DNA from: Asterochloris sp. CNOR1
Lineage: Eukaryota; Chlorophyta; Trebouxiophyceae; Trebouxiales; Trebouxiaceae
DNA length: 64,000 nt
Reading direction: 5' to 3'
NCBI GenBank assembly: GCA_963969365.1
Contig: OZ017746.1
Coordinates: 62,001 to 126,000 of the forward strand
A model generated the notes under the pieces. It saw only the letters and a list, made by a program, of their open reading frames with translations. It did no database searches and was not told the origin of the DNA. Both the position numbers and the translations under genes were made by a program. Of this stretch, positions 4,401 to 53,404 are shown piece after piece. Numbering within the stretch: position 1 is the first letter of the stretch; each line of letters opens with the position of its first letter.

Positions 4401-4956
4401 ATCTTGGCACAGGGCATGTGGCCACATCAAGCTGAGAGCCCTGCTGCCAGGGTCTGGAGGGTGGCCAATTCCATGCTTGTATGTGATGCTGGCAGGCCAT
4501 GGCCCGCCATGTGTCTTCTGCTGCTGTACCTTGTGCATACCTGCCCACATCATGCCTGATGTCTCAAGGCCCTGCAGCAGTGGCAGGCTGCAGGGCCTTT
4601 GTGCTCACCGCCCATGCCCCTCCCCGAGTCACAGGAATGCCCTTCTGCACAGTCCCACTCCCCTGGCGTACAGCACCAGCGCGCTGCGCTGCGTCCTCAG
4701 CAGTGGCCACCTGTCGATCCCCTGCATGTCTGCAGGAGGTGGACCTGCAGACAGGCCCTGCAGGCACAGGCACGCTCTGCTGCACACTCCAGACAAGCCC
4801 TGGCGCAACGCACCTGAGCTCTCCGTTGCGACCCCAGCAGCGCATACCTTTTGCTGCATGCAGGTCGTGGACCTGCAGCCAGGCTCCATGAACACAGTGG
4901 TACTGGAGTTGGAGGAGGTCCTCGGGCACCGCTTCATTGAGGTCAACAGCCCAGAG
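1438..4956 (+). CDS. Exon-like blocks of an unrecognised plus-strand gene
   Basis: Protein-like blocks bounded by CTGCAG acceptors and GTRAG-type donors lie at about 1438-1505 (frame containing GIEIFGPGYKAVLF), 2142-2331 (GEALVVTHAGRRVAASAL), 3223-3437, 3838-3994 (TLQEYVAAMKPNQPGIFYEE) and 4864-4956 (VVDLQPGSMNTVVLELEE). Phases between blocks do not all join cleanly, so some boundaries or frames are wrong. I considered HSP90 for the 3838 block because of its EYVAAMK-like string, but the neighbouring blocks do not fit that family. No function is assigned. A decayed copy of the 4864 exon start occurs upstream near 4736. Confidence 0.3.
2571..2740 (+). repeat. Tandem repeat, two copies of about 86 bp
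   Basis: Two nearly identical units, each starting CCCTGTGCCTGGGTG, lie at about 2571-2656 and 2657-2740. They are in a non-coding stretch between exon-like blocks. Few differences between them suggest a recent duplication. Confidence 0.75.
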
Positions 4957-5296
4957 GCAAGCAGTTGCTGCCTTGGGGCACCATGTTTAGATGGTTGACG
5001 TTTGTCAGCTGGGCTGCCAGATCTAGGGAGGGCATGTTGGCACCTTGCTCTGCTGGTGACAGTGGTGTGCAGGCTTTGCAGCAGCTAACTTAGGCAATCA
5101 TCTCAGGTCACCACGGGAGCTTGTTTTTACTGCATCAGGCTGACAGTTTGTTGATTCCCTGCAGCCCTGTGTGGTCGTGCAATGACCACTGCGCTTGCGG
5201 CTGACCTGCAATGCAGCCTGATAAGCCATCTGCACCCTGTCCAGGCACTCTCCCTTTGCTTGAGCAGGTCATGACGTTTGCTCTCTGCCGTTGCAG

Positions 5297-8200
5297 GCGG
5301 CTGCCCTGCTGCAGTGGCCGGCTGACCACTCTGCGGTGTGGCCATTCAGCTGCTCTGACGAGTGTGAACCGCCCACCAATGGGAATCATGAGGCTGCGCA
5401 GCCCGAGGTGCCTGCCCTGGAGGCAGCGACAGTATCCAGTGATGCCGCAGTGGGTGTGCTTGTCCCCAGGCAGCCTGCAGTAGCACTGCCAGCAGAGCAG
5501 CCTGCAGCAGGCCAGAAGGCAGCGCAGCGTGCAACCAGCGCAAAGGCAGCGCGGCCTGCAGCCGGCATGAAGGCAGGTCAGCCTGCAGCAGGCCAGAAGG
5601 CAGCGCAGCGTGCCACCGCCGCAAAGGCAGCGCGGCCTGCAGCTGGCACAAGGGCAGGTCAGCCTGCAGCAGGCCAGAAGGCAGCGCACCCTGCAGCAGG
5701 CGACAAGGCAGCGCAGCGGGCCACCGGCACAAAGGCAGCGCAGCCAGCATCCGGCGCAAGGGCAGCTCAGCCTGCAGCAGGCCACAAGGCAGCGCAGCCT
5801 GCAGCGGGCCTGACGACGGGGTCGGCCTCTGGCGCTGGTCGTGCCAAGGTGCGCACAGCTTCACGGTCTTGTCTGCAGCAGCAGTTCACCTCAGCTGGGT
5901 CTGCAGCACCCAGCATGGCTACCTGAGATCACGTTGTTGCCTCGCTTTCTAACTTGCAGAGTTGTCCAGGCGCAGTATGATGAGGCACTGCTACCACGCT
6001 GGCCGCAGCCTGCTGCAGCTGTAAGGGCTCTCCAGCACGCTGCGCAGAGCTTGACGGCTGACTGCAAGATGCCTGCAGGAGAACCTCCTGGTGGGGTTGG
6101 CTTCCAAGACGCGGCCGCTCTGCGATGCTGCCAGGCCGCCCAAGCACGGCACGCCAGCCAAGTCAAACCAGGTGAAGCTGATGGTGAGCCCATGCTGTCA
6201 GCCATCTTGCAGGCACTGTGTGTTCTGTAAAGCATATCTGCATGCAATGCCAGCTGACAACCATTGTAACCAGCTGCAACGTGCTATACAAGCTGCTAGC
6301 TGTGGCTTGGCTGCACATTCCTCGCCTCTGCCGCAGGTGCATGAGCACTTTGCTGACTGGCCCCTGGGCCACAGCACACCATTGCTTGACTGATCTCAGC
6401 CCCACACACTTCTTGGCATGTGCAGGAGCAGCAGGGTGCTGCAAAGGCCAGCCACGAGGGGCGCGACGCGCCAGCTGCGGTTGCAGCCATCGACATTGAC
6501 ACTGACAAATACCAAGCAACCCCACAGGTGCAAAGGGTTGAGCGTAGACGGCAGGCCCCTGGTCCCCTGCATCACAGCACACTGCCTGGGGCCAGAAGGA
6601 TGACCTGCACGAGGTCTTGTGAAGCGACATCCATAATTGCAGCATGGGTCAGGAAGGCCTACATTGCCTCGCCGCAGCTTGCAAACGAGTCTGTCGACAG
6701 CAATGAAGCAGACAGTTCCACCCTGCCTGCAGGTGGGGCAGCCCTTTGAGGAGCAGCCCTCTGAGGAGCAGCAGGCAACTGTTGTGGCTGTGGTGGTCCA
6801 CAAGGCGGCAGGCCCAGGCACCGCCCCTGACTCAGCGCTGTCCTGTCCTGGAGTTGCAGATGCCCTCAGCGCTGAGCGCCAGGCTGCCGGGCTCCACGCC
6901 GAGCAGGAGCTGGCAGCGCTGCAGGCCACGTTCCAGAAGGCGGAGAGCGCCCGCCAGCTGAAGGTGGCGGCCCTGCAGGGTGGCGCGCCGCTGGGGGCTG
7001 CAGCCCGCCAGGCTCCCCGACGCCAGCTGCAGCTGCAGGTCGCGGCGCAGCGCCGGCGCCACCAGGAGGCCTGCATCGCAGAGCTCTGCGCCCAGCACAG
7101 GCTCGCCCTGGCAGAGGCGACCGTGGACGGGCGCCCGGCCCGCGCAGGCGAGCAGCCCCCCCGCTTTGGCGCTGCCGCCCGCAAGGTCTGGCAGGTGCTG
7201 CCCGAGGGCATTCCCTTTGACCCCTACATAGCCCACCGGGTCAAAGTGCTGACCCAGGGCCCCAGCAACCGCTCCAGGCCAGCATGGCAGAACGGCAGCC
7301 TGCCCAAGTCCAGGTTTCGGCCCGGCCCAGCTGCAGCTGAGCGGCCCCGCCCAGCAGGCAGCGCAGCCCCTGGCTGCCCCGCCAGTGCAGGGGCCCCGCA
7401 GACGCCCCTGGCTGCCACCCACAGGCTGCCAGCCCAGCCGGGCACCACCCCAGGGCAGCCGTCTCGCATCAGTAGGGCAGATGGGCAGCAGCAGCCAGTC
7501 CCTGCGGCTCACAGCATTCTGCGGCAGAAGGACGGACTGCGCGCAGAGGTGAACGCTCAGGTCTGCCTTGCTGCTTCTTCTGCCATTGGTCACACAGGAT
7601 GTCGCAAGCCGCCCTGCAGAGGACATCCATCACCTGTTGCGGTCCCTTGCAGCTGCGCTGACAAGGCACCTCAGGAGCATTGTGCCTGCCCTGGCGTGTG
7701 ACAGTCGCTTCTGCACTTGATGGCCTGCTCTAATGCTGCCTGCTGCCCAGCCACCTGCATGCCATGACTGCAGCCTGTCTGGGAATGGCAGCACCAAGAG
7801 CAGGCCTGAAGCCTGTTGGCTCTCTGCTGCAGAGTCCCTTGCCAGGCACCACCAAGAGCGCCACCAGGGCTTCCCACACCACGTCCAACTTCAAGAAAGC
7901 TGCCACACCTGCATCCCCAGGGCAGACCCGCCAGCACCTGCATGAGGTAGCTTGTCGTAGCATGCTCAAGGGTGTTCAGTATTGCATGGTGTCCAATGGC
8001 CTTTGCAGTGCATTTTTGACGTCCTCATGGTGAGGAAGGGCCACAACCTGAGGGCTGCGCCCATGTCCTGCCCGCCAACACACGTGTGTTGCGCCTCAGT
8101 AAGGTCAAAAGCATGCTGCCACAGCACATGGCACCCGCACGCATCAATCCTGAGTGGAAGCACACTCAAGCAGCAGGCAATGGGATTCGTTCATTTCGTA

Positions 8201-9982
8201 CATTGTCGAAGTGTGCTGCTATTGCACTGCAGGGCCAGGGTGGCCTGGCGGCGTCTGCTGCCTCCACCAGCAACGCCAGTCAGCCCCTGCACCTGAACCC
8301 TGCCAGGGTTGAGCCCTCTGCGACAGCAACAGAGGCCCGCGGCTCCCGCAAGTCAGGCAAGACGTCCCTGCTCAGGCGTCTGGTGCCCAGGTGCCTGGAG
8401 AGCTGCCAGCCCCCAGCGCCAGCCCCTGCTGCCAAGGCGCCAAGTCCCGAGGTGGGCAGCCCCAACATCTGCTGCCTTGCTGCCTGGCAGCATTGTGCGC
8501 CTCTGTGGGATGGCACTGTGGCAGCAAAGGCAGAAAGTGTGCCCGTGTGTCTGTGGGACAGCACTGTGGCAACAATGGCAGAAAGTGTGCCCTTGTGGAC
8601 CTGGCGGTGAGTGATGCACCTTAGTGGCAGCATATAGGAGGCAGCGCAGGTCTGCATGGCTGCCTCGCAAAGGGGGTGGGGCTGTAGGCTGTCTCCACAT
8701 GCCTGCATGCCCTGCCTGACAGACAGCTGAGGCTGTGAGCACCTGCATGGCTGAAGTTTGGCCCGCATGCCCGATGTGACAGCCTGGGTGGTGGGGTTCG
8801 AAGCACGGCTCTGCCAGGGAGCAGCACTGGCCTGCATGCCCTGCCTGGCAGACACATGGGGACGTGAGACACAGCATGGCTGCATGTGTGGCGGCGTCAT
8901 CGCCAGCATGCCCCACCTGACAAGTGGTTTGCAGAGTGCATCGGCATGGCTCTGCAGCGGGGCAGCACTAGCCTGCATGCCCTGCCTGGCCGAGCACCTG
9001 AGGGGCGCATGCACCTGTATGGTCGCTGAAGGAGGCCTCCTTGGCCTGCCGGGCCTGCATGCCCTGCCTGGCCGAGCACCTGAGGGGCGCATGCACCTGT
9101 ATGGTCGCACATGGAGGCATCCCTTGGCCTGCACACCCATCCCTGGCTGCAGCCCTGACTAATTCTGCAGGCTCTGCCCAAGCCCCCTATGCTGGCGCCT
9201 CCACCCAAGCGCTGCACGGGAGCCTCAGGCGCTGGCAGGCGGCCGCAGAAGAGGCCAGCCTCTCAGCGCAGGCCCACATCTGACATCGTTGCGCCGCCTC
9301 AGTCAAGGAGGACGGTGCGTTGACCACCCTTCCGCGGTCCAGGGGTACAGACCTGCACCATATAATTTTTACAATGTACCGCGGGGAGGTGGCTGGGAAC
9401 AGGCACTTGTTGCCAGCAATGCGTGGAGGGAGAACCACAGCCAAAGGGCTGACACTGCTCTCAAGGTTTTGGGCTCCACAAGCCATATTCCCTACCTTGC
9501 GTGCAGGCTGCTTGCAACCATTTCTTGCTTTGCCTGCAGGGCCAACATCATGCAGGTAAGACTGGCAACGCTGGTACTGGTCAGGGCACTGGCAACGCCT
9601 ATAGCCAGAAGTCTGGCAACACAAGCTATGAGCAGGTTAGTCATTGGCCAATTTGTTGCACAACCTGGGCCCAGCAGTTGTACAACCGCCCAGAACTTTT
9701 CAACTGCACAAATCCTGACTGAGGTGCCTCAGACATTGGCTATTGCTGCTGCAGGGCAGCACCCAGGGTGCTGTGACAGGCACTGGTGGCAGTGGCCAGG
9801 GTGGTGGCCAGCAGGGTGGCCAGCAGGTGTGTTTGGCAGGCCATGCTCTTTCCTGAAGCTGCCTGCCTGCTTCTGGCAGGATGGGGTAAGCACATCAAGT
9901 TCCACTCACTGGTGCTGCAGGCTGTGATTGCAGGAGGCTGCTTTGGGCGCCTGAACCGCAGCCAGCTCCCAGATGGGACCTG
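5297..9982 (+). CDS. Exon-like blocks encoding basic, low-complexity protein (unrecognised)
   Basis: Open, splice-flanked blocks: 5297-5848, containing two levels of repeats rich in QPAAGQKAAQRAT-type Ala/Gln/Lys units; 6733-7548, an Ala/Gln/Arg-rich helical, probably coiled-coil stretch followed by a Pro/Ala-rich basic tail; 7833-7946; 8233-8451; 9171-9314 (Pro/Lys/Arg-rich); 9541-9637 and about 9756-9829 (Gly/Gln/Asn-rich); and 9919-9982. The composition suggests a nucleic-acid- or cytoskeleton-binding scaffold, but that is inference from composition only. It may continue the 1.4-4.9 kb gene or be separate. No family is recognised and the 3' end was not found. Confidence 0.35.
5488..5810 (+). 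repeat. Coding tandem repeat, Ala/Gln/Lys-rich
   Basis: Units built on GCAGCCTGCAGCAGGCCAG and AAGGCAGCGC recur with small changes and stay open in the plus frame, giving alternating AAGQKAAQRAT and AKAARPAAG motifs. The opposite strand is also open, giving a Cys-rich 216-residue shadow ORF that I do not consider real. Confidence 0.7.
8690..9115 (+). repeat. Minisatellite built on CTGCATGCCCTGCCTG
   Basis: The core CTGCATGCCCTGCCTG recurs near 8704, 8832, 8975 and 9056. The last two sit in a near-identical 78-bp duplication (about 8972-9030 and 9050-9112). It lies between the exon-like blocks at 8451 and 9171, so it is probably intronic. Confidence 0.7.
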
Positions 9983-9999
9983 GTGAGAAGAGCTGCTTA

Positions 10000-12225: not shown

Positions 12226-15200
12226 ATGCCGGCGCTTGTCTTTTTTGGGCGGCGATGGCACATGGCCTCAGACATGCTGCCTATCCCCGGCATTTGTGGG
12301 GCTGTCGTCCACGTGATCTGGATCATCGTGTTTGGCGCGCTGGTTGGGCGCTACAAGATCCTCAGCGAGGACTGCGTCCTGAAGACTGGAGCCAGGCAGG
12401 GGGGCATACAGCTGCAGGTGAGGGACGCTTGGGTCCTGACAAAGAGCAGCAGCAGACCCTGCTGCTGGTCAGGCCCTGCTGAAGAGCATGGCAGGCAGCG
12501 GTCATGCAAGCTGAGTGCTACAGTGGGCAGCTGTGGATGTCGCTGCTGCTTTCTCCGCTGCCCAGCACAAAGTGAAGCGTCAATCAGTCTCAGGTAACCG
12601 TTGCTGCTGCTGATGAGGAATCCGATCCACTTTGGTCAGAGCATGTTTGGAAGAGCAGGACCACACACCAGCTTTGCCGGCAGGCAATCTCTGCGCCCGA
12701 ATTGGGCTGCTGAGCGCTGCAGGCAGGGGCTGAACAGCTGCCGAAGGATCAGGTGCCCAGGCTGCCTGGCTGTGGGGGCTGCTTCGAAGCGATGACGTTG
12801 CTGTCTATGCTGTGGGGCTGCCTGTGGCCCACGCAGCTGCTGCGAAGCCCTTGAGAGTAAGCAGCACTCCCGGTGCTAGACTGCTAAGCACATCCTGAGA
12901 AGGGGCATGGCCCCACAGACAGAAGCGAGTATTGCTTCACACAATCATTCGCAGCATGGCTGCATGTGTGGGTGTGAAGCCCTGCTGGTGCAGCTGCCAG
13001 TGGTCCATGCAGCTGCTGGCAGCCGTCGAAAGGAAGCAGCACAACTGGTGCTGAGGGATGTCTGAGCATGCTTGCTCTGTCGCCTCCGCCCGACTGCACA
13101 ACTGTCATCTGACCACCTGACCACCTGACTGCACGATTGTCATCTGACCACCCGACAAAGGCTGGTCTGCCACCCCCAGCTTCAATGCAAGCTGGGCCTG
13201 CTTAGGGCGGAGGCATGCATGGTGGGAGGCTGCAGCTCCAGCGAGGTGCTCTTGCTCTGTGACCTGCACATGGGTTTTGGCTGCTCCTGCAGGTAGTGGC
13301 GGGCGCCTTCATGGCAATCTATGCAGCCAGCCTGCTGGGGGAGATTGCACTGACGTGGGTAGGGTTTCAGGGTGAGCCTACGTCTGCATGCCTTGCTCCA
13401 ACCTTGCATGAGTCTCCCTGTCTCACCGAGTGCTGCCGATGTCTGGCCGAGCTTGCACCTTGTACAATAGCACCAGGTGGTGGTCAGCCTGTTGTTGTTT
13501 TGATTGAACTCAGCTAATTGGCTTCAAGGGCTCCTGACTGCCTGCCTCGCAAGTGGAGGCATCAATCAACCCACAGCCACCACACCAGCATCAGATCTCT
13601 GCCAAACTTGGCCGCAAACTTTCACTCAAAAGGACAGGCATCCTGCAGGCCCTTGTCATGCCTGCTCAGCACGTGTGACCCCTGGCTCCCAATGCTGCAG
13701 GGACGCCGCTGGAAGTCCGCAAGCGCCGCGCAGCCACCCCGCTGCTGTACGTCATGACTGTGCTCTGGATCCTGCAAGTGGTCTTCATGAGTGAGCCTGA
13801 GCTGAGCTGTTTCCTTCTTGTCTGCCCAGACCTCAACTCTGCCCAGACGTCGTTCTGTCCAGTCCTCACTCTGCCCAGACCTCACTACCCAGACCTCAAG
13901 CCTGCCTGCCAGCCTGTGCCTGTCTTGACCTGCTAGCTGTTGCTTTCCTCTGCTCCCTGGACTGACCCATCACGTACTCTCTGCTGCGCAGTCTATGGCA
14001 CAGTTGTGGCTCACACCGTCTACCCTAGCTGCTGGGACGGGTCCTATGCGCGCTACATCCCCCGAGTCATCAAGGCCATGGTGTACTCCACCTGGATCTT
14101 TTCAGTCTTGCTAGCGTGAGCATGCCTGCCTTTGCAGAGCCACTGGCGGAATGTGTGCTGCAGGGAGGCTCAAAGCCAGGCTGCTTGCCAACAGATGTGT
14201 GCCTGCATGGCATGCAAGCTGAGCAGACGAGTGCAAATGTAGTCTGCCAGCACATCCTAAGGCCATGGCCTGCTCCGCTTGGAGCTGCCTTTGTTGTTGG
14301 CCAGAGCAGGACTGCAGCTAAAATGTAGTTTGTGTTCAGTCTGGCAGCATTCCCACCAAGCAAGCTGTCTGTGCATTGTACTGCTACATGTTGTTGTGGA
14401 GCTGGGAACCCAGGCCCCTGGGGCAGCCTCTTGGTGGCAGCGCTGCTGGTTCAGGCAGGCAGCATGCAGTTTGCAAGATGCGCTGTCTGTGCATTGTACT
14501 GCTACATGTCGTTGTGGAGCTGGGAATCCAGGCCCCTGGGGCAGCCTCATGGTGGCAGCGCTGCTGGTCCAGGCACTGCAGGTTGCAGTTTGCAAGATGC
14601 GCTGCATGCTGCCTGCCTGCACACATGGCTCCTACAGCCTTCGGGGATGCGCTGCAGCCAGATGGGTTCCCTCTGCCCCTGACAAATTGTCAAGTTGCAG
14701 CCCTTCATGTGCATCTTGTTTTGTATTGCTACATGAATAGGCTGGGAGGCCTGCACAACCACTACCATGCTCAGGATTATGTGACCGCTGCCCTGCAGGC
14801 TGTGCCTGCTGCTCATCTACAACGCCTATCCAGACCATGACAAAGTCCAGAACTGGGAACGGCGCTGCGGCTGCGTTGCCCACCTGTGTGGGTGCTACAA
14901 AACAATGACGTCCAAGGTCGAGGACAGGTCAGTCTAGTGAGAGCTGCTACGCCTGTGACAGAAGCAGGCTCTGTTGCCTGCCACTTGTGAAGCGTAGCAG
15001 ACGGCGACAGCTGCAAGCCAATATTTGCTGAGGCTGCCTACGGTCCTGCACCTCTGACCAAATGCTTACATCTCTGGTCCAAACAAACAATTACGTCTCT
15101 TTTCCAACTGTGGGGCTGTCATGCAATGCCTGGAAGACCAGCAGCTCCATGCCACCAAGAAGAGCACACTCATATGGTCAAGCAGCATTGCATGGCCCTG

Positions 15201-18200
15201 TGTGTGGCCATGTGCTGGATCCATAGGCTCCCTCATCTTGCCTGCTGCTAACCATGCTGCTGTCTCCAAGGAGCTATTACCTGCCACCACCTGTGCACCC
15301 ATCTCCTGTCAAGGATCACCCCTGCCCAGCTTGCATTTGAGCATTGAGCGCATGCCAGAACAAGGCTGCTGTCAAACCTGCTTTTTGCTGAAGCCTGTCT
15401 GCTGTCGCCTGCCACAGTCTGCTCCGCCTCTGCCTGCAGGGCCGCCCCCCTGCCCAGCATTGCCCAGTGGGTGTCGGGCATCATGGGCGGCATTGACCTC
15501 GCCCCATCTGACATCACCTGCGCCCTGGTTCTGGCCGCCGCAGCCCAGCAGCGGCGCCGCAGGATGCGCATCAAGCGCGCTCTGGAGCCCGTGCTGGAGA
15601 GGGCCACCACAGACCTGTCCTCGACTGTGTCAAAGAGCTCGCGGTCTGTGCGCCCCACAGACATGGACAGTGACATTGACGACGAGACAGGTGGGCTTCG
15701 CTGTGCGCCCTACAGATGTAGAGGATGAAAGTGACAACGAGACAGGTGGGTTGCTTTGTGAGCCCCGCAGACATGAAAAGCGAAGGTGACAACAAAACAG
15801 GTGGGCTGCTCTTTCCGCCGCACAGAAGTGGACAGCAAAGTGGATGTCGAGACAGGTGCGCTGCTGCGTGGCTTGGAGTTGTTGTTTATTCAGCAATGCC
15901 TCATCTTCACATGTGCCTCCAGAAGATGTGGCATTCAAGGACAGGTGAGGCAAGGCAGCCACATGGTTGTCATGGACCTGTGGCTTGGAACTGAGGTCTT
16001 CAAATCAGCCTCACTAGGCTCCAATGGGTGTCATTCTCGAGCAACAGATGTGCTGTTGCTTGATCCGGTCTCAAGGTTGTTCAAGGCTGGATTCTTCAGC
16101 AACACGTTTGTGCCCGACTGATTGGCTTTGAGTCAAGTCCCTGAACGAGGCTGAATAGGATCAGGTGTGGCTGAGGCTGGCATGCCTCCTGTATGCACAA
16201 CCGAGCCATGTCTTGAGGCAGAGGATGCAGTGCAACAGCATGGCATGCCGCTGCAGAAGGGAGCGTGATGAGTGACGACACAGACAACGCCCCTAATTTG
16301 AGGGATGTGACGATGCGGGACGGGGAGCTCACCCCCACAGGAACAGGTCAGTTGTCTGTTTCAAATGAAACTCCTAGTGCACAGGAAGTACGAGAAGGGT
16401 GGGGACGGAGAGCCTTGCTCCTTCTGCTGCACCTGCATGCCTGGCTGCAGGGGTTGTCTTGATGCACAGCTGCAGCACTGGGTGTCTGCCATGCAGTGCC
16501 TTCCAAAGTGCATTCAGCAGGATGGCAGTTAGGTTCTACATGCAGTAATGGGTGTCACAGCACGAGGCTTGCCAGGCCAGCTGCCATGTGTATGATGTGA
16601 AGGCTGAAGCCACAGTGCATTTGGCAGGTCGCTCGCAGTGGCAGGGGAGATGGTGAAGGCACTGCCACCCACCCCTGGCAGGCATCATCATCATCCTTGT
16701 TGCTTCTCTCCATGTAGGTCATCACTTGCCCCTGCCTGCAGAGGAAGCTCCAGTGGCGCTGCCAGCCAACTACCCTGAGAAGTGGAGGCAGGCAGCCACC
16801 ACGCAGTACCAGGACGCAGCTGAGGCCATGGAGGCCGGGCAGCTGAAGCGGCCCTCCAGCACCCCCAGCAGCCACCCCAGCAACCCTAGCAGCCGCCCTA
16901 GCCACCCGCAGGTCCCAGACTCAGACAGATGCCCTCTTCCGTCAAGACAGGACATCGAGATGGCCAATCGGGCCCAGGTAGAGCAGGACCAGAAAGGGCC
17001 GCCCTCAGCCACCTCAGAGGCTGCCTCTGATGGGCATGGAGACCCGGAGGAGTTGTCGAAAGACCGGCGACCGAGCGGGTCGCCCCGCACGCCCCCTGTG
17101 AAGAACAACAGTGGGCCCCAGCTGTCCAAGCACACGGATGGAATGGAGACAGGGGTCTTGGACGATGACTCGGCCTCTGCGTGCTCCATCGGGGACACCC
17201 CCTTTGCAGCGCTGGCCAACCAGCCGCTGTCGCCACTTTCGGGGCACTCCAGCCCGGTGAGGTGCCTGGATGTCTGCCATGTGGGCACGGCCAGTCCGTG
17301 GAAAAGTCGGGGGTGTGTGCACTACCAGTCATTTGTGCCAGGTCCAGCACTGAGAAGCCCAACCCCTTCCACCGGTTTTGGTGCAGGGCAGCCCCAATGT
17401 CAGCTGCTCAATGCTTGAGTGGCAGTCAGTGTGATACAGTGGAGTCACTGCTTACTGATTTTCAGGAGGGCCTGTCCACAAAGCTTGTGGAGTCACCTCC
17501 AGGGCATGTTCTGTCTGGGAGGTTGTCCAGCTCAAGCGCTCTGTGGGCTCTTTTGATCAGTTTGGCACTGACGGGCAGGTTCCTGTGATTCAGTGCTTGT
17601 GCACTGGCAGTTGCTGCCCACCAGCCCAACAATGCAAGAGCCCTGCCCACTGTGGCTGTTTCCTATCCCACGTTGTGCTGGCTGCAGATTGCTCAGGGCA
17701 GGTGACCAACTTGGCAGCCCTGCCCTCCAGCGTAACAGCACATTAGCCCTGTGGATGCTTTGTGCGGCATGATGTCCTCCAGAGCCACTGCCAGTCCCAT
17801 GTCCTCCTGGCTGCAGGGTGCTCATGGCGTGAAGGTGATCAGCCTGGCGGACCTGTCCTCTGGAATGCTGAACAACACAGAAGAGGCTCACGCAGCAGGG
17901 CAGGCAGCCGAGCACCAGCAGGCTGCTGCAAGGGCTGAGTCCTTTGTGACGGCTGATGAGGCACGAGACACAGTGGCTCCCCTGGACACGCCGCCTCAGA
18001 CAGGTCAGCACCCCATCCGAGAAGGGCGTCAGGCAGCATGGCAGTCAGGGAGTTGGATTGTCAGATGGCTAATCAGGCACGAAGCGCTGTGGCACCTTCA
18101 GCACATGCCAGCTCAGACGGGTCAGCTCCTTCTCCTGGGTTGTGAAGAGGGACATATCATAGTGACCTTTGGCTTTGGCACAGCATGGCCTGCTGGCTCT

Positions 18201-25634: not shown

Positions 25635-26257
25635 ATCACTTAATGGCACCACTTTGCTGTGCCCGCGGGACCTCAGTACGTGCTATGGACTCAGCACAAA
25701 CGCCTCAGCACACCCGTCTCAGCATTGCGTTGAGCAACGTATGTCGCAGTTCAGCGCTACCCTCTATGCCCATTGCGAATATTTGCCCCGCCCTCAGGTT
25801 AACAATCCCTCCTGTGACTGCTAAGCTCCTCCTTCACCTTGCTATTGCTCATGCACTTGATGAACAGTGATGCAGCATCTGAAATTCCCACCTCAGCTGT
25901 GTACTGGAAGTCTGATGAAGCTGACTACCTTTGTGGGCAGTTTTAAGCAGATGCAGCTTGCGATACAGGAATTGCCAGCTTTTTATCTTGTAAGGGAATC
26001 AGCTGGCTGAGTGTTGGCTCTCAGCGAATGGTGTCGCATAGGAGTGCTAGTAACCTACGTATGCTTTGCAGCTGCTCTGCGCACTCAGCAACAAGCTGTT
26101 GTAGTTTTCTGCAGAGGACACAGTGTTAGGGTAGGAGCAATTGCCAGGGTGCGTATCTCAGGCGGAGGTGCATGTGCTGCAGTGGTCTTTCCCCATTGCA
26201 GCCCTGCCAAGAGAGTGCTGAGCACCTTGCAGCAATCCCATCGTGCAGGCTACATTC
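25635..26257. other. Intergenic region DAGL-aquaporin
   Basis: No gene seen. TGTAA at 25989-25993 is the chlorophyte-type polyadenylation motif and could end the DAGL transcript about 355 bases after its stop. The end of the stretch holds the aquaporin promoter. A TCGTGCAG acceptor-like site ends at 26248, ten bases before the aquaporin ATG. Confidence 0.45.
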
Positions 26258-29200: not shown

Positions 29201-29528
29201 GAACAAAGAAGCACAAATTCCTGGCTTGCTGCATTGCAAGTCACCACTGGCGGGCCCTATGGCATTTGTGGTCAAACATATGTGACCTTATTGCTGACCA
29301 CACCTACCAGGGTTGGAATGTGGCCTAGTCGCTTATCCAGGCACAGATTAATCTATAAAGTTGCTGAACCAAGATACCCAGTGCGTCCTGCAGGCTGCTC
29401 CGCAGCGAGGCTCCAAGCCCAGCCTGTCAGCCCTGGCAGAGCAGGAGGCCCGCCGCCCCCATGCACCACCCTCTGGGGCGCGTGCTCAGCAGGATGCCCA
29501 GCAGTGGCGCCTGAGCAGCCAGGTGTAG
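26258..29528 (+). CDS. Aquaporin / major intrinsic protein
   Basis: Six-helix water or small-solute channel. Eight exons join in phase: 26258-26389, 26846-26981, 27447-27592, 27924-28049, 28381-28477, 28569-28624, 28960-29187, 29394-29528; about 351 residues. Helix 1 is in LWAALLAEFIGMAIFQIYGG. The first pore motif is SGGHLNPAVT (NPA ~102-104) and the second is GGQFTGAALNPAR (NPA ~222-224), with the selectivity-filter Arg directly after it, so both half-helices are canonical. The C-terminal ~70 residues are hydrophilic (Ala/Gln/Arg-rich) and cytosolic by topology. I chose the ATG at 26258 because it opens the exon; codons before it follow a CAG acceptor. Two decayed copies of the start of exon 27447 lie upstream at about 27220 and 27320. 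The substrate (water, glycerol or other) cannot be read from this. Confidence 0.93.
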
Positions 29529-37878: not shown

Positions 37879-40093
<2,215 letters not shown>

Positions 40094-41465: not shown

Positions 41466-44400
41466 ATGGTGCTCAACATTCGACAGAAGCAGATTGGTGA
41501 GTAGGGGCGTGTAGGCAGCAATGCTGTCCTTAGCTGCAGCAATGCCATGGGTCACTGCTGACTGAGCTCTAGCACTGAACTGAAATCATTCTGAGCTAAT
41601 CGCCCACCAATGCGCTGAATGCCAAAGCGCCAGCCCCTGCTGCACCTGCAAGCCACGCTTGTTGGTACTGTCAGCCTCTTCTGCACCTCATCTGCTGCAT
41701 GCTGCTGCTCTCCTGCAGATGCTGTTGTGCGCATGCTGCACTTTAATGCTGCGTCGGGCCCAGGCAGCGGGCCAAGCAGCGCGGGCAGCGTCCACAGCCA
41801 GCAGCAGCAGCAGAATGGCCGCGATGAAACCTACAAGGTCCTAGTGCTGGACAGCTTTACCAAGGACATCATTGCCCCGCTGCTCAAGGTGGGAAGGGAG
41901 GTGCAGCTTAGGTGGGGAGAGCAGACAAATCAGTGCTGGGAACACAGACGCAGACGACGCATCTGTGTGTTCTTAGTGCCAATGACGGTGGTCCTGCCAA
42001 AAGAGGAGCTGGTCTCGTTGCACCTCTGCACACGAGTGTGAGAGTAGACTTCTGCACCAGAGTGTGCAGCCTGGCTAGGCTGGGGTGCGCCTGTGCAGCT
42101 GGTTTCAGATCACGCTGAACCTCTCCATGCAGAGTCAGGGTCCGGGCAGTTTGTGTGTTCCTGTCACGCAGTCCACTCAGCCACTGTTGAACCCTGCATC
42201 AAGGCCTGTTCTGCGGGCCTTTTAACAGCGCGCCACCTGCCCAGCGACCACGCAGACATAGGGGCAGCCATCCCTTGTCCTGCCGCCTGCAGGTGGCAGA
42301 GCTGAGGCGGCATGGCGTCACGCTGACGTTGTCGCTGGAAAGACCGCGGGAGCCCATCCCAGACGTGCCAGCGGTGTACTTCCTCACAGCCACCGAGGGC
42401 AACATTGCTGCAGTGGTGAGCTGCACAGTGTGCTGCACGCAGAGCTTGAGCTGTGGTGTGCATGCTGCACATGGTCTGTTTGGGAGGCCGGACAGCGCTG
42501 AATGAGCAGCAGTGGACCTTATGCAGTTTGTGTAATCAGAGGGTGAGTCGTCATTATATGGCTTGTGTCCAGCCCATGGGTCCATCTGCACCTCAGCTAA
42601 GTGCACCTCAGCTAAGCACACCTCAGCTCACCTGAGCTCAGCGATTTGCTGCGTGCAGCTAAGCTGCCTTGGTCATGCCTGCACCACAAGGAATGCTGCA
42701 CAACACGTGGCGGCCCAACATACAACCCTCTCCCTTGCTCCCCAACCACCTGCAGGTCAATTCTGCCAACGATATATCATGTTCATCCAGAGCAATTTGG
42801 CGGCTGCTGAACGCTCCAATGTGAACGCTGCGATGCAGACTGTGTGCTGCTTGGCCGGACAGGAGCAGCTCATTCATGCAGAGCTGCTGTTCGATTGCCT
42901 GCAGGGCACCAAAGCCTCCGTTGGCATCTTTTGACAGCCTGCAGTGCAACCTCAAAGTCTGGCCCCTGGCTTAGGTCTGTGCCCGCACGGACTGCAGGTC
43001 AACAGCCCCGCAGCCTTCATGTGCAACAGCCCGCACGCCAGCTCTCAAACCTGCGTCTGTTCAACATGTGCTCCTCTGTGCCTGCAGGCCACCGCTGCCT
43101 CTGCCCGGCATATCAAAAATGTTGCAGTGCGACCAGCAGTGGCATTTTGCAAGCGCTGATCTGAACTTGAGTGGCTCTCTCTGCTTGCAGGTCATTGGTG
43201 CCTCCTTTGAGTGAAGGGAATGTCTCGTGTTGGTTGTGTTGAGCAAAAGCAAGGAAGCATTTGTACCAGACGTCACCTTGTTTTCGTGTGCCCGGGCAGT
43301 TGCTCATCGCACCCTGCAATTTAGCAGCCTGTACCTCAGCTCTCAAGCCTGCACCTCATCCTTGGCGTGCCCTTGAACCCTCACTCCTGACCCTGATGTG
43401 CCCCCACTCACCTGCAGGTCGCCGACGCCTCTGCCGGCATGTACGACAGCCTGCACCTCAATTTTGCATTCAGCGTCCCCCGCCCCCTGATGGAGAAGCT
43501 GGCCGCCTCCAGCGTGCGCCAGCAGTGCCAGCAGCGCATTGCCAAGGTGCACGACCAATTTCTGGCCTTCCGGGCGCTGGAGGCTGGGCTGTTCAGCCTT
43601 GGGCTGCCCAATGTCTATGTGGACTTGAATGCCCCCGGCGTGCAGGACCACCAGGTTCAGGTGAGACTGCCGAGAAGGGCTGAGAGATGGGCCTGCCGTC
43701 AGCTGCCTGGCATGCAAATTACGTTGTGTTGCACTCCCAGAGCAGCTGTCTTCAGCGATCACGGGCTGGACAATCACAGCTGATGCTGGGCCTGTGATCT
43801 TTAAGACTCCGCACCCCAGACGCCTCTGTTGCACCAGTGCGGCAAGCTGATCGTGCCCTCCGCTGGCTGCTGCAGGCGTGCATCAATTCAGTGGTGGACG
43901 GCCTGTTCAGTGCAGTGGCTACGCTGGGAGTGGTGCCCATCATCAAATGTCCCAAGGTGAGGGCCTGTGCCTCTACCAGGTTACGTTACGGTGTTTCAGT
44001 GCCTCCTGTGTCCAGCTGTTCCCACTGTCAGAGGGGTCACTCAGTCTGCTGTTGCAGCCTTGCAAAGGTGTGGCTCCAGCTCCTGCCTCTGCCTGCAGCC
44101 AGCCATGTCAAGGTTGCTGTCAAGCTCAGGCCTGCCAGCTGCATGCCCCGCTCTGGTACCTTGCTCTGCCGCTGTGCTGGTGTCTACATCAGCCCCAGCT
44201 GCCATGCTGGAGGACCCTGCAACCCTGACCCCTGAAGCCTAAATCCTGCAGAGCGGCGCGGCTGAGCACATAGGGCGTGAGCTGGACACCCGCCTGCGCG
44301 ATCATCTGAGGCAGCGCAGCAACCTATTTGCAGAGGGCACCGGTGGCCTGGGAGCGTCCCTGTCCCGGCCCCTGCTCTGCCTTTTCGAGCGCAACTTTGA

Positions 44401-47400
44401 GCTCTCTGTGGTGAGCAGGACGCCCTCTCCCCAGTTGCTTAGTGGCATTTAAATGTGCATCTTTTATCCTGGACCCCTCGAGGCTAGGGCAGCTTCTGTT
44501 GGCAAACTTTTCAACAGCGCTGCTTGCCTTCACACCTGTGAGGCCTGGCATGCCGCTTGCTGGCTTTGCGCCTGCGGTCTGACAAACATCAATCTTCAGT
44601 GCTGGCACAGTCAATGACAAAACCGTATGCACGCCCAGACATGCTGCTTGATTGCCTCGCACATGCGTTTGTCAAACTCTGGCTCTCCTGCCGGTACAAT
44701 CCCTTGGGCACCATCCTCTTGCTCACGCATTCACGCGCATGCACGTTGCCTGATGGGTTTGCCCGCACAATGCTCTTGTCCTTGCTTGGCACTTGCTGAG
44801 GTTGAAGCTTGCAGCAACACATGCTGTGCTGTGCCTGTGGCAAGCAGCCTTTCCATTGCACAAGGGCGCAAGAAGCACAGCAACTGTTGCTTGGAACACA
44901 CTAAGGCAAGCAATTGCAAACCCTAGATCTGAACCCCACACCCCAAACCTCAGCTCACCTCTCTGCCTGCAGGCTCTGTAGCATACAGAGACATGCAATG
45001 GCAGGCACCTACACCCCGTGTCAAGTTAGTAGGCCCTGAATTCCTTCGTACTATCATTTCTTAGCTCCCCTCTCTGCCTGCAGGCTCTTCAGCACACCTG
45101 GACGTACAAGCCGCTGGTACATGACGTATTGGGCCTGCACTTGAACAGCCTGACCATTGAGGCCCCTGCCGGGCAGCAGCTGATGCCACAGGAGTCCAGA
45201 CGACGCTATGACGTGGGTCCCTCAGCTTTCACCTTGCCATTCTTCTCTGCATGATTCTCAACCGTTCCTTCCCAGCATGCTGTCGTGGTCCTGGGCTGCT
45301 GCATGCTATGGCAACGTGCCATCCACAGTCGAGGAGTGTCATTGCAGCGGGGGGCTTTCTTTCTTTGTGTCTGCACATGGGGCTGCTGCAACCCAGGCAG
45401 CGTGGGTGGCCGCGTGGACAGCTACCAGGATCGCATGTGGTGCTGTGTGGCCGCCACCCCAGCTGTTTGGGAGCCACGCAGTTTAGCGGGAGCGACTCTT
45501 CTGCTGCCCTGCCAACCCCGTTTTGAACCCTCGCACCACTCCTGCCTGCAGGTCGGGGATGGCGACTTCTTCTGGGAGCAGCACGGGCGGGACCAGTTCC
45601 CCAAGGCTGCTGCAGACAGCGACCTCGAGCTCAACAAGTATAAAGCGGTGAGTGTGGCAGCAGCCTTCACAATAGCATGGGGTGTTTATCCTGGTGTCTC
45701 AGGGTGTACGGTCTAAATAACGGTGTTGTGCACCTCTCAAAGGTGACTGCCTGCCTACAGGACGTGCAGGGCCTGAACGGGCATCCTGTGCTCATGCTGT
45801 GTCCATCAATCACACTCAGGCGTCTGACCAGCCCCCGCTCTCGCTCCCTGTTCCTACAGGGACGTGCAGGGCCTACATGGGCGCAAGGGTGCAATATGCT
45901 TATGCTATGTCCATATGACAATCAGGCATCTGACCAGCCGCTCTCTTCCTGTCCCCTGCAGGAGGTGCAGGACCATCAATCACAGCCAGGCATCTGACCA
46001 GCCCTCTCTCCCGGGGTTCAGGGTTTTCTGTCAGGAGGTGCAGGACCTGAGCTGCCAGACAAGCGCCAGCACGAACCTGTCTTGCTGTGCCTGCAGGAGG
46101 TGCAGGATCTGAACCGCCAGACGGGCGCCAGCATGGACCCCGACATCGACCCCAGCTCCCAGATGCAGTCCAACACCCGCCACCTCATGTCGGCGGTCAC
46201 CCGCCTGCCCCAGCTGTCTGAGCGCAAGCGCATCATTGACAAGCACACCAACATCCTGCACGCGCTGCTGGCCGCCATCCAGGGGAGGACCCTGGACAAG
46301 TTCTACACCGCAGAGGAGGCCTGCCTGCTGGGCAAGGGGGACGTGGGCGGCGTCGTCAACCTCTTGCAGGTGGGCTCGTGCTGCACGCCCTCACAACCTT
46401 TGACAGGTGCACGGGCACAGAACAGCCCACATGGTGGTGCACCTCCCCTTCAAAGCTCAGCCACATGTGGCTTCAGATGTGTGGCTGTCTTGCATTGCAC
46501 TGAGTATTGCCTCTCTTTCTGCCCAGAGGATCCCTGCAGGCATCAAGTGCAGGCGCAGATCAAGCGCCACAAGTCATACAAGGGAGGTTTTCACGCAACA
46601 AGAACGGCTAGGATATGTTCAAACCTTCAGGCAACAGTTGCATTGAAGAGCCCCGCTCGCCCTGCAGACCAGCAGGAGCACTTGTGCATTCACACATCTG
46701 AGCATCCATTGCATGAAACCCTGAGGAAACCCCTCTCCATGCTGCAGACCAGCAGGGGCACTCCCACCGACGCGCTGCGCCTGGCCCTGGTGCTCCTGCT
46801 GACCTGCGAGGCCCTGCCAGCAGCTACAGACCTGGAGCGCCTGGCCCAGGCCCTGCAGCAGCGAGGCGCCGACCTGGCCGCCTTCAACTACGTGCGGCGC
46901 ATGCGCAGCCTAAACCTGACGGGGAAGGCCGCGGCGCAGCCGGGGGTGGACGGGCTGGGAGGGGGGAGCTCCTCGCAGAGCCAGCTGCTGACGTGGGCCG
47001 ACAAGGCCTTTGGGCAGGGGCTCAACGCTGTCACCAAAGGTGGGTGGGTGCAGGAGTTTGAGGTCAGGGTGGATTGCTGTGGGCTCCATCTGAGTTCTGT
47101 GGGAAGGACTCAACAGTTGCGCTTGTTTGGGGGCCAGGGCCTCGACGCTATCTCTAAGGGTAGGTGGTTGCACCTTTCAAAAGTCAGTGAATGTTGAGGG
47201 CTCAATCGGACTTCTGAAAGCGGCTGGTTGGTCTTTGCATGTCCCTCTTCCCAAGGAAACTGTGCCGAATGTTACTCCCCAACACGCTGCAGGTGTGAAG
47301 AACCTGATTGCTGGGGAGCAGCGAGCTGCCGTGACGTCTGCTGTTGAGAGCTTGATGGAGGCCAAGGCCACTCCAGAGAACGATGCCTATGTCAGCCTTG

Positions 47401-48069: not shown

Positions 48070-48141
48070 CTTTGACAGTGTGCAAAAATGAATGTAGTGA
48101 GGGCTTCAATGAAACAAACACATGAAAGGGAGGGGCTGATT

Positions 48142-51100
48142 TCATTTGGCTGCATCCATACATTTCTCCGTTCTGACACATAGCCACTCGTGTCCCTCAG
48201 CGCTTGGGAACATGCAGGACCCATTGGAGAGCTGCTGGACACAGGTGGTGAAGACCGGTGGGTACATCAGCTGGAACCCAGTCTCAGCCACAGTGTACCT
48301 CAACTGCGGCAGCAAAGGATAATCGAAAAGAACACCTCATAGCTCAGACTCACAGCAGGGCTGTGCAAACGCATGTGCAGCAGGTCAGCAAGAAACACTT
48401 CAGGCAGGCCTGAAGTCAGCCCCTGCTTGACTAATATCTATGCACTTTTGCGGCAGTAAGACCAGAAATTGTCAGCAACTAGCGACAAAGACAGGCTTGC
48501 TGCAGACAAGCGTGGCCGACCTGATGGCGCTGCTTCCACTTGTGGAAGTACCGCGGGGCCAGCAACTGAAAGATGTGGTCACGCATCTCATCATTGCTGA
48601 CCATGAAGCCCTTGTGGCCAGCAGCAACGGCTGCATACATCCAGTACCTGTAGGCAGAAGGGAAGGACTCAGTCTTTAAGTGGACCACAACAGCTTGCCA
48701 CATGCTGCACTTGCCAGCCAAGATGTCTCAGGTGCAGGCTGATGTCACTGCACTCAAGTCACATCAACAGAAGCGACGCACGTTACTCAAAGCAACAGGG
48801 TGTAGCTGGCAATGGAAATGCATTCTGAATTACCGCTCTCATGCATGGCCAGAACATGCCAAACGCTATACCCCAACATCACAGCAGCAGGCACTGCCAG
48901 AGCTGTGCTACCTCTCCCAAGCCAGAGGCTGTGTGCCTGCCAATGACTTAGGCGACCCAGCAACAGCAACCGCATCTGCCTGTTTGAACACAGCAACCCA
49001 AAGCACAGCGCAGGCTTTGGCAGTACGTCCTCTTCAAGCATGGCCGTCCCATGCCAGCAGGGCAAGCCGGAGGTCCCCCATCAATTGTTGTCGGGGCCAA
49101 AGTGCATCTAGTACAGGGCTTACAGCTGGGGTACAGCTGGTGAACAGCCTGCAGAGGCACCAGAGCAGCAGGGCAAGCCTGGAGCCCCCCCACCCCCAGT
49201 CCTTGAATAGACAAAGGGCGTGAAACACAGCTGGTGCTCAGCCTGCGGAGGGCATTAAAGCGGCAGGGCAGGCGGAGGCCACCCACCAGTCGTCATTGGA
49301 CCCAAAGGGGGTGGAATACAGCTGGTGCTCAGCCTGCAGCCTCTGCACCAGCAGCGCAGCCCCCGGCTGCTTGGCCAGGGGGTGCTTCAGGCGCGACTGG
49401 TGCAGGAACACCAGGGGCTTGGCCCCCGGCAGGTCCCGCTGCACCAGGTCCAGGCACTGAGCCAGCTGGGCGAAGCTGAAGCCCCCCTCGGCAAAGTTCT
49501 GCCCGTACAGCGCGACGTTGGCGCCATCCACGATCACGTTGTAGGGCCCGTGCTGGGACAGCCAGTCTTGGAAGAGGGCGAAGTCCTTGGGGTGCTTCTC
49601 GCGCTGGCGCGCCAGGTCGGCGATGCCGGCCGCAAAGGTGGCCCACTCGGGGGCCTCCAGGTCGCTGGCCTGCACAGGGCTAGGGTTTGGGACAGGGTTG
49701 AGGCAGGAGCAGGCGTGCGTCTGACCTGGGTGAGGCGTAGTCACCTTGCAAGCTGCTCACAACGAACAACCTCAGAAAAGCTGTCAGCTGTGGCCTCATG
49801 GTCAGATCCATGCCCACGTGGCTGCTCAGCCTGCTGGCTGCAGCTGAGCATCCAGCAGCTCTTTGCTGTGGTGCTGGCGCTGCCAGGCGAGGCCATCAGG
49901 GAGAATGCAGGCGTCTACTTTGGGCCAAGCGGTGGGGATCAAAATAGGCAGAGGTGTGGGCTCACCTGTATGCAGTGCTGGTGCTGCCAGCAAGGCAGCC
50001 AACAAAGCCTGGAGGACAACACACCCAGGGTACACCCTGAAAGTGTCCTCAAAATGAGGGCTGTCTGTCTTTCCACCTCAACAAGTCACCAACCTGCAAC
50101 CGGCCGCCGCAGGCAGAGCAGATCCCGCTGACGTCCACTGAGGCCGAGGTCAGCTCCCATCCATTGCCCTGGCCCGCAAGGGGCCCTCCAGGTGCAAAGG
50201 CAGCTGCAGCAGTCTCCGACCTGCAACACACAGGGCACAACTGCAGAAGTTTGTGAGCTCGTGACAGATCAAGCCCTGCACCATTGCAATCTTACAAATG
50301 GGGGGAGCCATGCGCGGGACTCCATCATGGCCTCTCCTTGACAAGGGCTTGGCTACTCTGACGAGTCGGGCGGCTCTATGTTGCCCATCTCCACCAGTCC
50401 AGTCAGGTGCTTGTGCACTCAGCATGCAACCTGCCCAAGGCAGCGCACACACCACCAGCTGCTCAGACAGGGGCCCTAGCAAATGCGAACCAAGCTCGAG
50501 GCTGACCTGAAGAAGGCCTCCGCTGCTGCAACGGTGCTGGGCTGCAGCGCCGTCAGCTCCCGAGTCATGTCCTGCAGCAGCGCGCTGACCTGCCCCCAGG
50601 TCGCCCCATGCTGGCACCCCTCCAGCAGGACGGCAAAGTCTGTCTCCACCAGGTCCAGGTGCAGCTCTTCGCAGCGCCGCTGCACCTGCACAAAGGCGGG
50701 CTGTCTTCTTACTCCAGCCAGTCAAAGCGCTAGGGGTGAGTCTCTGCTGGACGCTGGGTCTGTGCACCACATGAGCTCATGTGGCTGTCAAAGCTGCAGC
50801 TGGCCGGCGAATACTTGTCCAAAAGACTGTTTTGCGGTCGGTCAAAGCGCTGGAAATGAGTCTCTGCTGACCTCAAAGCCTCTTCACCACATGCTCGGGT
50901 GGCTGAGTGAGCTGCAGTGAGCAAGGCTGCCTGGCTTGCATGACGGCAGCAATACCTGCCACGATGGTCCCTGCAGCGGCCGAGTTTGCCTGGTGCAAAG
51001 TTTGCAATGTGCCAACAGATCATGCCACCAGAAGGTCAATGGCACACACCTGCGGGGCCGCTGTGGGCTGTCCAGCAGCAGCGCAGAGGGGCAGGCACTC

Positions 51101-53404
51101 AGATCAAAGGCGCTCACATCTGCAGGGCTCCATGCGCTATCCAGCAGCTGAGAGGGACATCTCAGCCGACAGCAAGCAGGCGAGTGCATTCACATTCGCA
51201 GAGCATGTGCAGGCTGTCCAGCAGCTGAGAAGGTCATTTCTGGCCGGCAGCAGGCAGGCCAGTGCGCTCACACCTGCAGAGCCTCTGTGGGCTGCCCGGC
51301 AGCTGAGAAGGCCAGCATAGCCGGCTGAAAAGCGCGCAACTTGGGCTGGCAGCCTGCGCGGATGCCGTCCTCTGCAGCCAACAGGGCTTCCCGGGGTTTC
51401 CCCGCAGCCGCGGCCATCCGAGACAGCGCCAGGTAGGCCACCTCGTTGGGCTTGGACCCCGCCCTGTGCTGCTGGTGCAGCTCGCTGAACAGAGCCTGCC
51501 CCCGCGCGTGCAGCTCCTCAGCGGACAGAACGGCCGGCTTCAGCATTGGGGCTGTGGGGTCTCTGGGTGCGCGTGCTTCTGAGGTGGTGGCCTGCCCTGG
51601 TCGGGCTGCTTCTGAGGCAGCGGCAGGCCCTGATGGGGCTGCATTTGAGGCAGCAGCAGACCCTGCTGGGGCTGCTTCTGTGGCAGCAGCAGGCTCTGGT
51701 GAGGCTGCATTTAAGGCAGCAGCAGACCCTGCTCGAGCTGGCGGGTGCCAGCCTGACAAAGCGGCCATGGCGGTGGCAAGCCGGGCGGCCGCCTCCTCGA
51801 GGCGTTCTGGCGTCTCTGCAGCGCACAGGAGGCGCGTGGTTGCATGTGCTTTTGAGACATCAAATGCTTGTAGATCAGAACGCTGTCTGCACTTGTCAGA
51901 AACAATCTTTGTTGAGGGGGCTGACCCTCTGTGTGTTTCCTCTTCCAGGACCGCACCAGAACCGCTCAGTGGAGAGCAGGTGCGTAACAGTGCGCAGTTG
52001 CTGCCTGCCGGCGCTGGAGATGTGTCATGTGAGTTGAAGCATATGCTGCCTCCTGTTACTGCAAAGTGCTGGAGCAGGGTGCAGTTTTCTCTCAGGATGC
52101 CTTTCCTTCCTGACCCCACCTTCCCCCATCCCAGTCAGCGATGCCCGTGCCAGGGCTCCTCCCATTTTTGTGAGCGCTGGGTGCTCCAGGCGGCTGGGGC
52201 ACCCGTCGATCCCTGACCCCCTTTCAGCCCAACCCTGCTAGCAACCTCGCGCCATGAAGTTGCCCCCAAACCTTAAACCCTAGTTGACCCCCCCCCCCCC
52301 CCCCGGCCCTGGCCAGCGGAGGGCAGTGCTCCCCTCACCTTTGGGCGTCTTGTGTGGCACTGACGGCAGGGCGGCCAGCTGCTGCCTGAAGCCTGTGTCC
52401 CAGTCATCCCCGCCAGCGCACAGGTACATCAGAATGTCGTACACGTTGCCGATGATTGGGATGCTGCGAGCGGTGGCTGCGTCATAGGCTGCCAGGCCGG
52501 CGCTGATGTCCCCCAGCTTGGCGGCCTCCTGCACTGCAACGCGCACCTGCAGGGAAGGGCGCGGCAGTGAGGGAGTGCAGGTGCGCCTGAACACCTCCAC
52601 ATAAATAGATAAAAAAGGTCTGACTGGGACACTGGTGAAGTCGCAAAGTGCGTCTGCAGTGCGGCAGGCAGAGTGGGCGCGTGACCGTCAAGGAGTCTAA
52701 CATGATCAATGATGAGCGGGCCAGCGTGATGCTGGCAGCCCTGGCTATCAGAAGAGCCTCTGGGCGGGCAGCGCTGCACCCTAATGCGGTGCTGCAGGTG
52801 TTTGCGACGAGTAAGCTTGACAAGAAGGACTGGGTTGCAGTTGGGGTATTGTGGGGGTTTTGGGCAAGGGTTGGTGTCAGAACAGGATGCATGGCAGGGC
52901 GACTGGCCTAGGCAGCCGTTGTGACGGCCACTTCAGCCCCAGAGGGTGTGCTCAGGGCAGCTGGTGTGCTGTATCAGGTCACCCCTCTTTGTGGCATGCA
53001 TTGATGTCCGAGCCAGAGCTGCAGGGAGTCCGTTCTGAGAGCAGCACAGCAGTCCTGTTCAGCATGTCAACCAAGCATGCTGCGGGCCACCGGTCCTCGG
53101 CACGGCACCCTGCAGTGTACCAGCACCCCTCAAGACAGCAGCACCTCATGGCAGGCACTCAGAGATGCAGCCCACTCACCAGGTGTTCGGGACTGGCCAC
53201 CTGCTGCTTGCGCTTCTTCCCACTCTGCTGCCCGGCAGCGGGCGCCTGTTGCTGCCCTTTGGGGGCCTTAGCTGGGACGGCCTGCTGCCCTGGCTGCTGC
53301 CTGGTCTGTGCGGGGACATGTGGGATTTGGCCAGCAACAGGGGCAGTCTGCTGTGCTGTCCCGTTCTGCAGCTTCAGCTTCTTGGCGGCAGGAGTAGGCT
53401 CCAT
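48142..53404 (-). CDS. PRORP: Protein-only RNase P (PRORP)
   Basis: Endonuclease that removes 5' leaders from tRNA precursors without an RNA subunit. Eight minus-strand exons join in phase: 53180-53404 (in-frame ATG also at 53449), 52339-52546, 51274-51815, 50507-50685, 50094-50220, 49287-49669, 48521-48647, 48142-48303; about 650 residues. Exons 2-4 form the pentatricopeptide helices (AAKLGDISAGLAAYDAA, SKPNEVAYLALSRMAAAAG). Exon 5 has the zinc-site CSACGG. Exons 6-7 are the NYN nuclease, with catalytic acidic residues in VIVDGANVALYG (Asp ~475), GSNDDWYW and VSNDEMRDHIF. The terminal exon HEWLC supplies the remaining zinc ligands. The N-terminus has basic clusters KKLKL and KKRKQQ and no obvious transit peptide, suggesting nuclear location (inference). 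Exon 3 contains an Ala-rich repeat insert. Confidence 0.93.
49040..49345 (-). repeat. Decayed copies of a PRORP exon tail in the next intron
   Basis: The tail of exon 49287-49669 (plus-strand reading ACAGCTGGTGCTCAGCCTGC) recurs at about 49218 (ACAGCTGGTGCTCAGCCTGC again) and 49132 (ACAGCTGGTGAACAGCCTGC), with GCAGGGCAAGCC/GCGG flanks repeated as well. These lie downstream of the exon in the sense of transcription. Confidence 0.75.
50715..50915 (-). repeat. Tandem repeat of about 120 bp, two copies, intronic
   Basis: GTCAAAGCGCT..GAGTCTCTGCTG occurs near 50728 and 50847, followed in both by CACCACATG and AGCTGCAG. It lies in the PRORP intron upstream of exon 50507-50685. Confidence 0.6.
50985..51315 (-). 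repeat. Tandem copies (~70-90 bp) of the PRORP exon 3 tail and donor
   Basis: The end of exon 51274-51815 (minus: CTTCTCAGCTGCCGGGCAGC ... CTCTGCAG|GTGTGAG) is followed in its intron by at least three diverging copies (about 51230-51160, 51150-51100 and 51080-51040) keeping the CAGCTGCTGGA(C/T)AGC core and a G(T/A)GTGAG-like donor. Confidence 0.75.
51590..51745 (-). repeat. Coding 36-bp repeat, Ala-rich insert in PRORP
   Basis: Four to five units of about 36 bp encode variations of AAPSGPAAASEA within PRORP exon 3. The insert separates the first helical repeats from the conserved block beginning PAVLSAEELHARGQ. It probably forms a flexible or helical linker. Confidence 0.75.

Follow-up and report, generated by a model that had tools for sequence, protein, structure and literature searches.

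Exon-edge copies in introns of the green alga Asterochloris sp. CNOR1 as probable long-lived traces of ordinary local tandem duplication

Genes and duplicated features of the window

The stretch of DNA analysed (hereafter the window) comprises 64 kb of contig 1 of Asterochloris sp. CNOR1 (62001–126000) and starts 62 kb from a contig end; positions in the window are counted from its first base. Searches against solved structures supported the names SLY1, sugar transporter, aquaporin and PRORP given in the initial annotation, the predicted proteins matching 1mqs (best structure match), STP10, aquaporin-4 and PRORP 2, respectively. Repeats are also seen within predicted coding sequence. A 27-bp-period array at 5492–5810 translates in frame to an alanine-rich repeat of a predicted protein, and the predicted PRORP gene has an in-frame 33-bp repeat at 51574–51740, upstream of the conserved part. 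A predicted gene or gene pair at 54020–60442 carries repeated tryptophan- and cysteine-rich modules, and its two halves resemble copies of each other by eye.

The initial annotation had claimed that decayed copies of exon boundaries sit in the adjacent introns, and such copies are real. The boundaries it named were examined by aligning 45 bp of exon plus 15 bp of intron to the 350 bp on the adjacent intron side, the control being 5000 stretches of 350 bp drawn at random from contig 2. For 11 of the 15 boundaries, no random stretch was as good (0/5000): all seven donors (15690, 22628, 32989, 36166 and 47039, with 51274 and 49287 on the reverse strand) and four of eight acceptors (4864, 22486, 45084 and 46097). 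Two acceptors gave weaker results, 11/5000 random stretches being as good at 43418 and 21/5000 at 46748. The copies reported for acceptors 19200 (148/5000) and 27447 (573/5000) were not significant; the best match lay near the reported place in the latter case and elsewhere in the former.

The sugar-transporter exon at 32881–32989 (forward strand; placed by STP10 alignment) has its tail and 5' splice site (32990) duplicated in an 88-bp array of about four copies at 32980–33349 (forward; 0/5000), with CAG/GT, the slash marking the splice site, at 32990, 33078, 33166, 33253 and 33341. The consecutive STP10 residues 238 and 239 align to the end of this exon and to a later exon, respectively, so the array is most likely intronic from 32990 on, although the gene models make part of it exonic; the later-exon segment, from residue 239, scores only 4.9 bits alone. 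A 117-bp array of three copies at 36152–36507 (forward; 0/5000) contains the tail and donor of transporter exon 36033–36166, with AG/GT at 36167, 36284 and 36401, and a 55-bp array from donor 15690 lies at 15646–15870 (forward; 0/5000), with AG/GT at 15691, 15746, 15801 and 15856. Copies of unequal age within one array, as had been proposed, are evident in the transporter, where intron–intron pairs match at 72/73 and 57/57 positions and an exon–copy pair at 49/63.

Other forward-strand features with 0/5000 are a 103-bp duplication in two copies over acceptor 22486 (22296–22505); a copy (22674–22737) of an exon tail that ends at 22628, a GC donor, or at the alternative donor 22632, either of which gives this result; a copy of the SLY1 exon tail and donor 47039 (47126–47172); and copies of acceptors with their exon starts, for 4864 (4723–4768) and for the SLY1 acceptors 45084 (44958–45010) and 46097 (46028–46077). 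On the reverse strand, PRORP exon tails with donors 51274 and 49287 are copied at 51181–51236 and 49181–49240 (0/5000 each). The weaker copies of SLY1 acceptors 43418 and 46748 lie at 43081–43126 and 46656–46682, both forward; residues 561–647 of the SLY1 model, before acceptor 46748, have no aligned counterpart in Sly1, and from 648 onwards the aligned segment is weak. A strict-scoring scan found two forward-strand copies absent from the initial annotation, of the exon tails with donors 57070 (57302–57416) and 20728 (20823–20883). Purely intronic duplications were found by a repeat scan. The acceptor-flanking unit noticed earlier at RPS23 proved to be a 51-bp tandem repeat at 38500–38609 (reverse strand), entirely within the intron and 11 bases away from the beginning of an exon which, from its motifs, we take to be RPS23-like. 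Two further tandem duplications in predicted introns, with no strand assigned, are one of 118 bp at 14364–14604, away from exon edges, and one of 82 bp at 8971–9132.

Sample, gene models and scoring

The sample consisted of 344 kb from four contigs, about 0.6% of the 56.38-Mb genome (21 contigs): the window, 200 kb of contig 2 and 40 kb each of contigs 5 and 8. Gene models were self-trained, unsupervised predictions with 717 introns of at least 60 bases. The gene-finder transitions were set midway between free values, which gave many tiny exons, and strict ones, at which most introns were lost. The models miscall some coding-like intronic copies as exon (33057–33455 and, in part, 46553–46747), which blurs the counts; other annotations may err alike. 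The splice signals learned from predicted introns of the four contigs were a CAG/GTGAG donor, with about 4% GC donors, and a strong CTGCAG/G acceptor. Spans of intron duplications and edge copies were taken from strict alignment scoring, permissive scoring having overrun in an unrelated-intron control.

Local duplication on the sampled contigs

Local direct repeats (score at least 16) numbered 432 at offsets of 30–400, against 14 at 5000–5370; 66 of the 432 were low-complexity repeats and were dropped. The middle half of the offsets, within the 30–400 searched, spans 78–182 bp. Over the four contigs, the edge's own intron contains a copy for 45/1021 exon edges (61/1044 in another count) and an inverted copy for 0/1021, while copies in neighbouring introns stay at chance level (5/5196). 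The copies are direct, adjacent and mostly head to tail within the same intron. Internal duplication (score at least 85) was found in 13.4% of 614 introns of 100–1000 bases and in 0/1842 unrelated control pairs. Collectively, the process occurs on all four sampled contigs and is of a known kind.

Relative to the other sampled regions, the window is richer in duplication by a factor of about 1.6. Its six full 10-kb blocks exceed 28 blocks elsewhere in duplication coverage (p = 0.0017), copies of intron segments are found for 28/437 inside it versus 38/1953 elsewhere, and 30 of 49 high-identity stretches are inside it. The earlier impression that almost every gene is affected suits this rich window but does not extend to the four contigs as a whole, where about 4–6% of exon edges carry a copy.

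The locality of the copies bears on two other readings, that they are introners (dispersed mobile introns) and that they result from misassembly, both scarcely credible. No support for either was found in the analysis; copies in neighbouring introns are at chance level, and the two arrays searched, 32980–33349 and 36152–36507, each occur at one place in the genome (in a search that skips simple repeats). Further, most copies diverge by 10–30%, unlike assembly error.

Position relative to splice boundaries

A special tie of the duplications to splice boundaries, as first suggested, was not supported. Duplications occur throughout introns, and their coverage is approximately flat over confident boundaries (381 donors and 395 acceptors). 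For donors and acceptors, respectively, coverage is 0.094 and 0.066 in the last 20 exon bases, 0.076 and 0.068 inside the intron, and 0.035 and 0.034 deep in the exon, giving edge/intron ratios of 1.24 (0.97–1.55) and 0.97 (0.69–1.33).

The related expectation that edges are copied more often than interior segments stood in the alignment tests, with a 1.5- to 2-fold edge excess, but not in the coverage. In a sensitive alignment test, copies were found for 45/1021 edges and 66/2390 intron segments (odds ratio 1.6, p = 0.015), and outside the window for 34/841 and 38/1953 (odds ratio 2.1, p = 0.0025). In longer introns the ratio is about 2.0 (31/515 edges in introns of at least 270 bases; 41/1348 segments in introns of at least 220). 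An independent version of the test gave 66/1021 edges and 110/2752 segments, and segments 50–100 bases into the exon had copies in only 4/734 cases. With permissive scoring (z > 4), copies were called for 9.1% of 441 donors and 6.5% of 445 acceptors; the figure was 4–7% for intron segments and did not exceed 1.8% for exon segments whose end lay at least 30 bases from the edge.

This excess, including its persistence outside the window and in introns of at least 270 bases, is what favours a boundary-linked process that would preferentially duplicate exon edges, whether through breaks at R-loops or through slippage or repair at splice motifs. The tendency of many alignments to end with the splice signal points the same way. 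Such a process nevertheless appears quite unlikely: coverage is nearly flat, constraint on the parent copy alone predicts both the excess and the stopping point in kind (see below), and duplication ends show no clear enrichment of the proposed CTGCAG and AGGT hotspots over nearby sequence. At 560 intronic-repeat ends, the frequencies at the end and nearby were.059 and.055 for CTGCAG,.173 and.148 for TGCAG, and.116 and.130 for AGGT. As the learned acceptor signal is itself CTGCAG/G, it accounts for at least part of the CTGCAG beside copied boundaries. Junction microhomology gave no clear signal in the 12 two-copy arrays among 15 near-complete ones, with the diagonal minus the period running from -12 to 8.

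Parent constraint and the prominence of edges

In the exon, identity between copy and parent is about 0.77; it is about 0.73 in the splice signal and falls to 0.51–0.54 just beyond (2 of 61 edge rows, with alignments starting less than 12 bases from the boundary, were dropped). Many edge alignments stop where the splice signal ends. In 28 short edge cases, intron similarity past the signal was weak (mean z 0.51; 3/28 with p < 0.05), 11 of 61 rows with too little room or too few exon columns having been dropped. The exon half of each pair was expected to be the better conserved one; permissive scoring showed only a weak contrast between the exon half (.75) and the intron half (.71), and the difference is clear only in the position-by-position identities above.

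When position-blind duplication was simulated with constraint on the exon and the splice signal, the same identity step appeared, together with an excess at edges. Runs with 65-bp units and old ages gave identities of about.80/.77/.54 in exon, signal and intron, short and long alignments at 426:363 (21:19 observed) and a reach into exons of.12, as observed. Old-only simulations, however, overpredicted the edge/intron ratio (4.3–5.2, and 11.9 in a narrower age run), which is about 1.45 overall in the data. Uniform ages with a constrained exon gave 1.25–1.40 (1.01–1.36 in a smaller trial), with exon identity too high (.86) and too few short alignments, and an unconstrained exon gave 0.91. In these models, no single age distribution fits all the observations; a mixture of ages is needed. 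Boundary targeting is not needed to account for these figures. The edge excess is of the kind expected from a constrained parent copy and may include a mild true bias, since it is significant outside the window and reaches about 2.0 in longer introns.

Age of the copies and growth of introns

The initial annotation had envisaged an active duplication process, which the age profile does not favour: events become more numerous as divergence increases, and few copies are nearly identical. For 212 events of at least 35 bases (of 300), the counts from identity of at least.95 downwards in steps of.05 are 1, 5, 23, 34, 69, 54 and 26, most copies differing by 10–30%. Judged by divergence, most copies look old, with the proviso that gapped extension lowers identity. 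Duplications that are multiples of three make up 22/32 of the exonic events versus 41/136 of the intronic or intergenic ones.

Regarding the suggested route to intron gain or growth, duplications (score at least 90) become commoner among longer introns, from 2% of 102 introns of 100–150 bp to 31% of 101 introns of 450–1000 bp, a trend also expected from mere extra room in longer introns, and no clear new intron was seen. A stronger version would be that this algal lineage long ago passed through an episode of frequent tandem duplication (units of approximately 50–200 bp) which produced a considerable share of its long introns and later slowed down, and that edges carry a mild but real excess; this we regard as unlikely.

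Intron gain through duplicated AGGT-bearing exon segments is extremely improbable here. Gain through tandem duplication has been well documented (PMC4974935, PMC3443670, PMC2891723, PMC2812944), the first three making it a known route in other eukaryotes. Donor–acceptor similarity (score at least 12) was also commoner than in shuffles (21/585 introns versus 5.0 expected), and two in-register introns score 13, at 23165–23314 in the window and at 29221–29348 in the contig-8 stretch, a score that shuffles reach too. On the other hand, the top-scoring introns (6/585, score at least 16) are all 7–24 bases out of register. The top two, at 22633 and 32990, were rejected as gained introns, being array copies miscalled as exons. 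In-register end copies above the shuffled control were found in 0/585 introns; decayed old cases would escape this comparison.

Retention of the copied splice sites as functional alternative or decoy sites is very improbable. AG/GT does recur in every copy of three arrays, from 15691 (4), 32990 (5) and 36167 (3). Overall, however, copied splice dinucleotides are retained at about the rate of exon dinucleotides (donors 20/31 and acceptors 15/26, against.59 and.62), and of the three periods, 55 and 88 are not multiples of three, while 117 is. The copied GT and AG would appear to drift neutrally.

A position-blind account and its implications

Quite probably, the edge copies are the longest-lived traces of ordinary, position-blind local tandem duplication, with no special process at splice sites. 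Short stretches anywhere in genes would duplicate in place, giving local head-to-tail copies. Exonic duplications would persist mainly if the frame is kept, and intronic or edge-straddling ones if the exon-side splice site remains in use; the extra copy is then spliced out, so that the duplication survives and the intron lengthens. Both halves of an intron–intron pair would drift afterwards. In an edge-straddling pair, the exon and short splice signal would be nearly fixed and the intron copy alone would drift, and because the parent half is held, the pair would stay recognisable longer. We infer exon-side splice-site use, slippage or unequal exchange, neutrality and intron lengthening by this route.

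Position-blind duplication offers a simple and testable account of intron lengthening without mobile elements. It suggests that exon-edge copies are over-noticed because selection holds the parent still, and scans for splice-site duplication should correct for parent constraint before a boundary-linked mechanism is inferred. Gene finders can mistake such intronic copies for exons. If the old-episode reading were true, edge-straddling copies, with their fixed parent half, could serve to time intron growth.

Comparison with known systems

Among the literature matches listed, titles and abstract beginnings contained no exon-edge copies in algal introns. Tandem duplication within genes, taking in exon sequence and splice motifs, is said to have been described by Rogers in 1989 and Hellsten in 2011, as cited in PMC4974935 and PMC3443670. 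The duplications reported here likewise lie in genes and include exon sequence and splice motifs, but the copies sit in existing introns and no clear new intron accompanies them. Zhuo in 2007 reportedly traced human introns to tandem arrays. Internal tandem repeats that change the structure of human paralogues are treated as recent events (PMC2812944); both human cases resemble the present one in that arrays cross gene-structure boundaries, whereas the copies here are mostly diverged and come from genome sequence. In Drosophila, novel intron positions are attributed to tandem duplication or sliding (PMC2891723). As described there, the likeness lies in a partial duplication beside a splice site, of which one copy becomes intron; here, by contrast, copies decay within existing introns. 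Similarly, introners as outlined in the abstract (PMC9860276) share with these copies a repeated sequence tied to introns of eukaryotic genes, but the copies described here are local.
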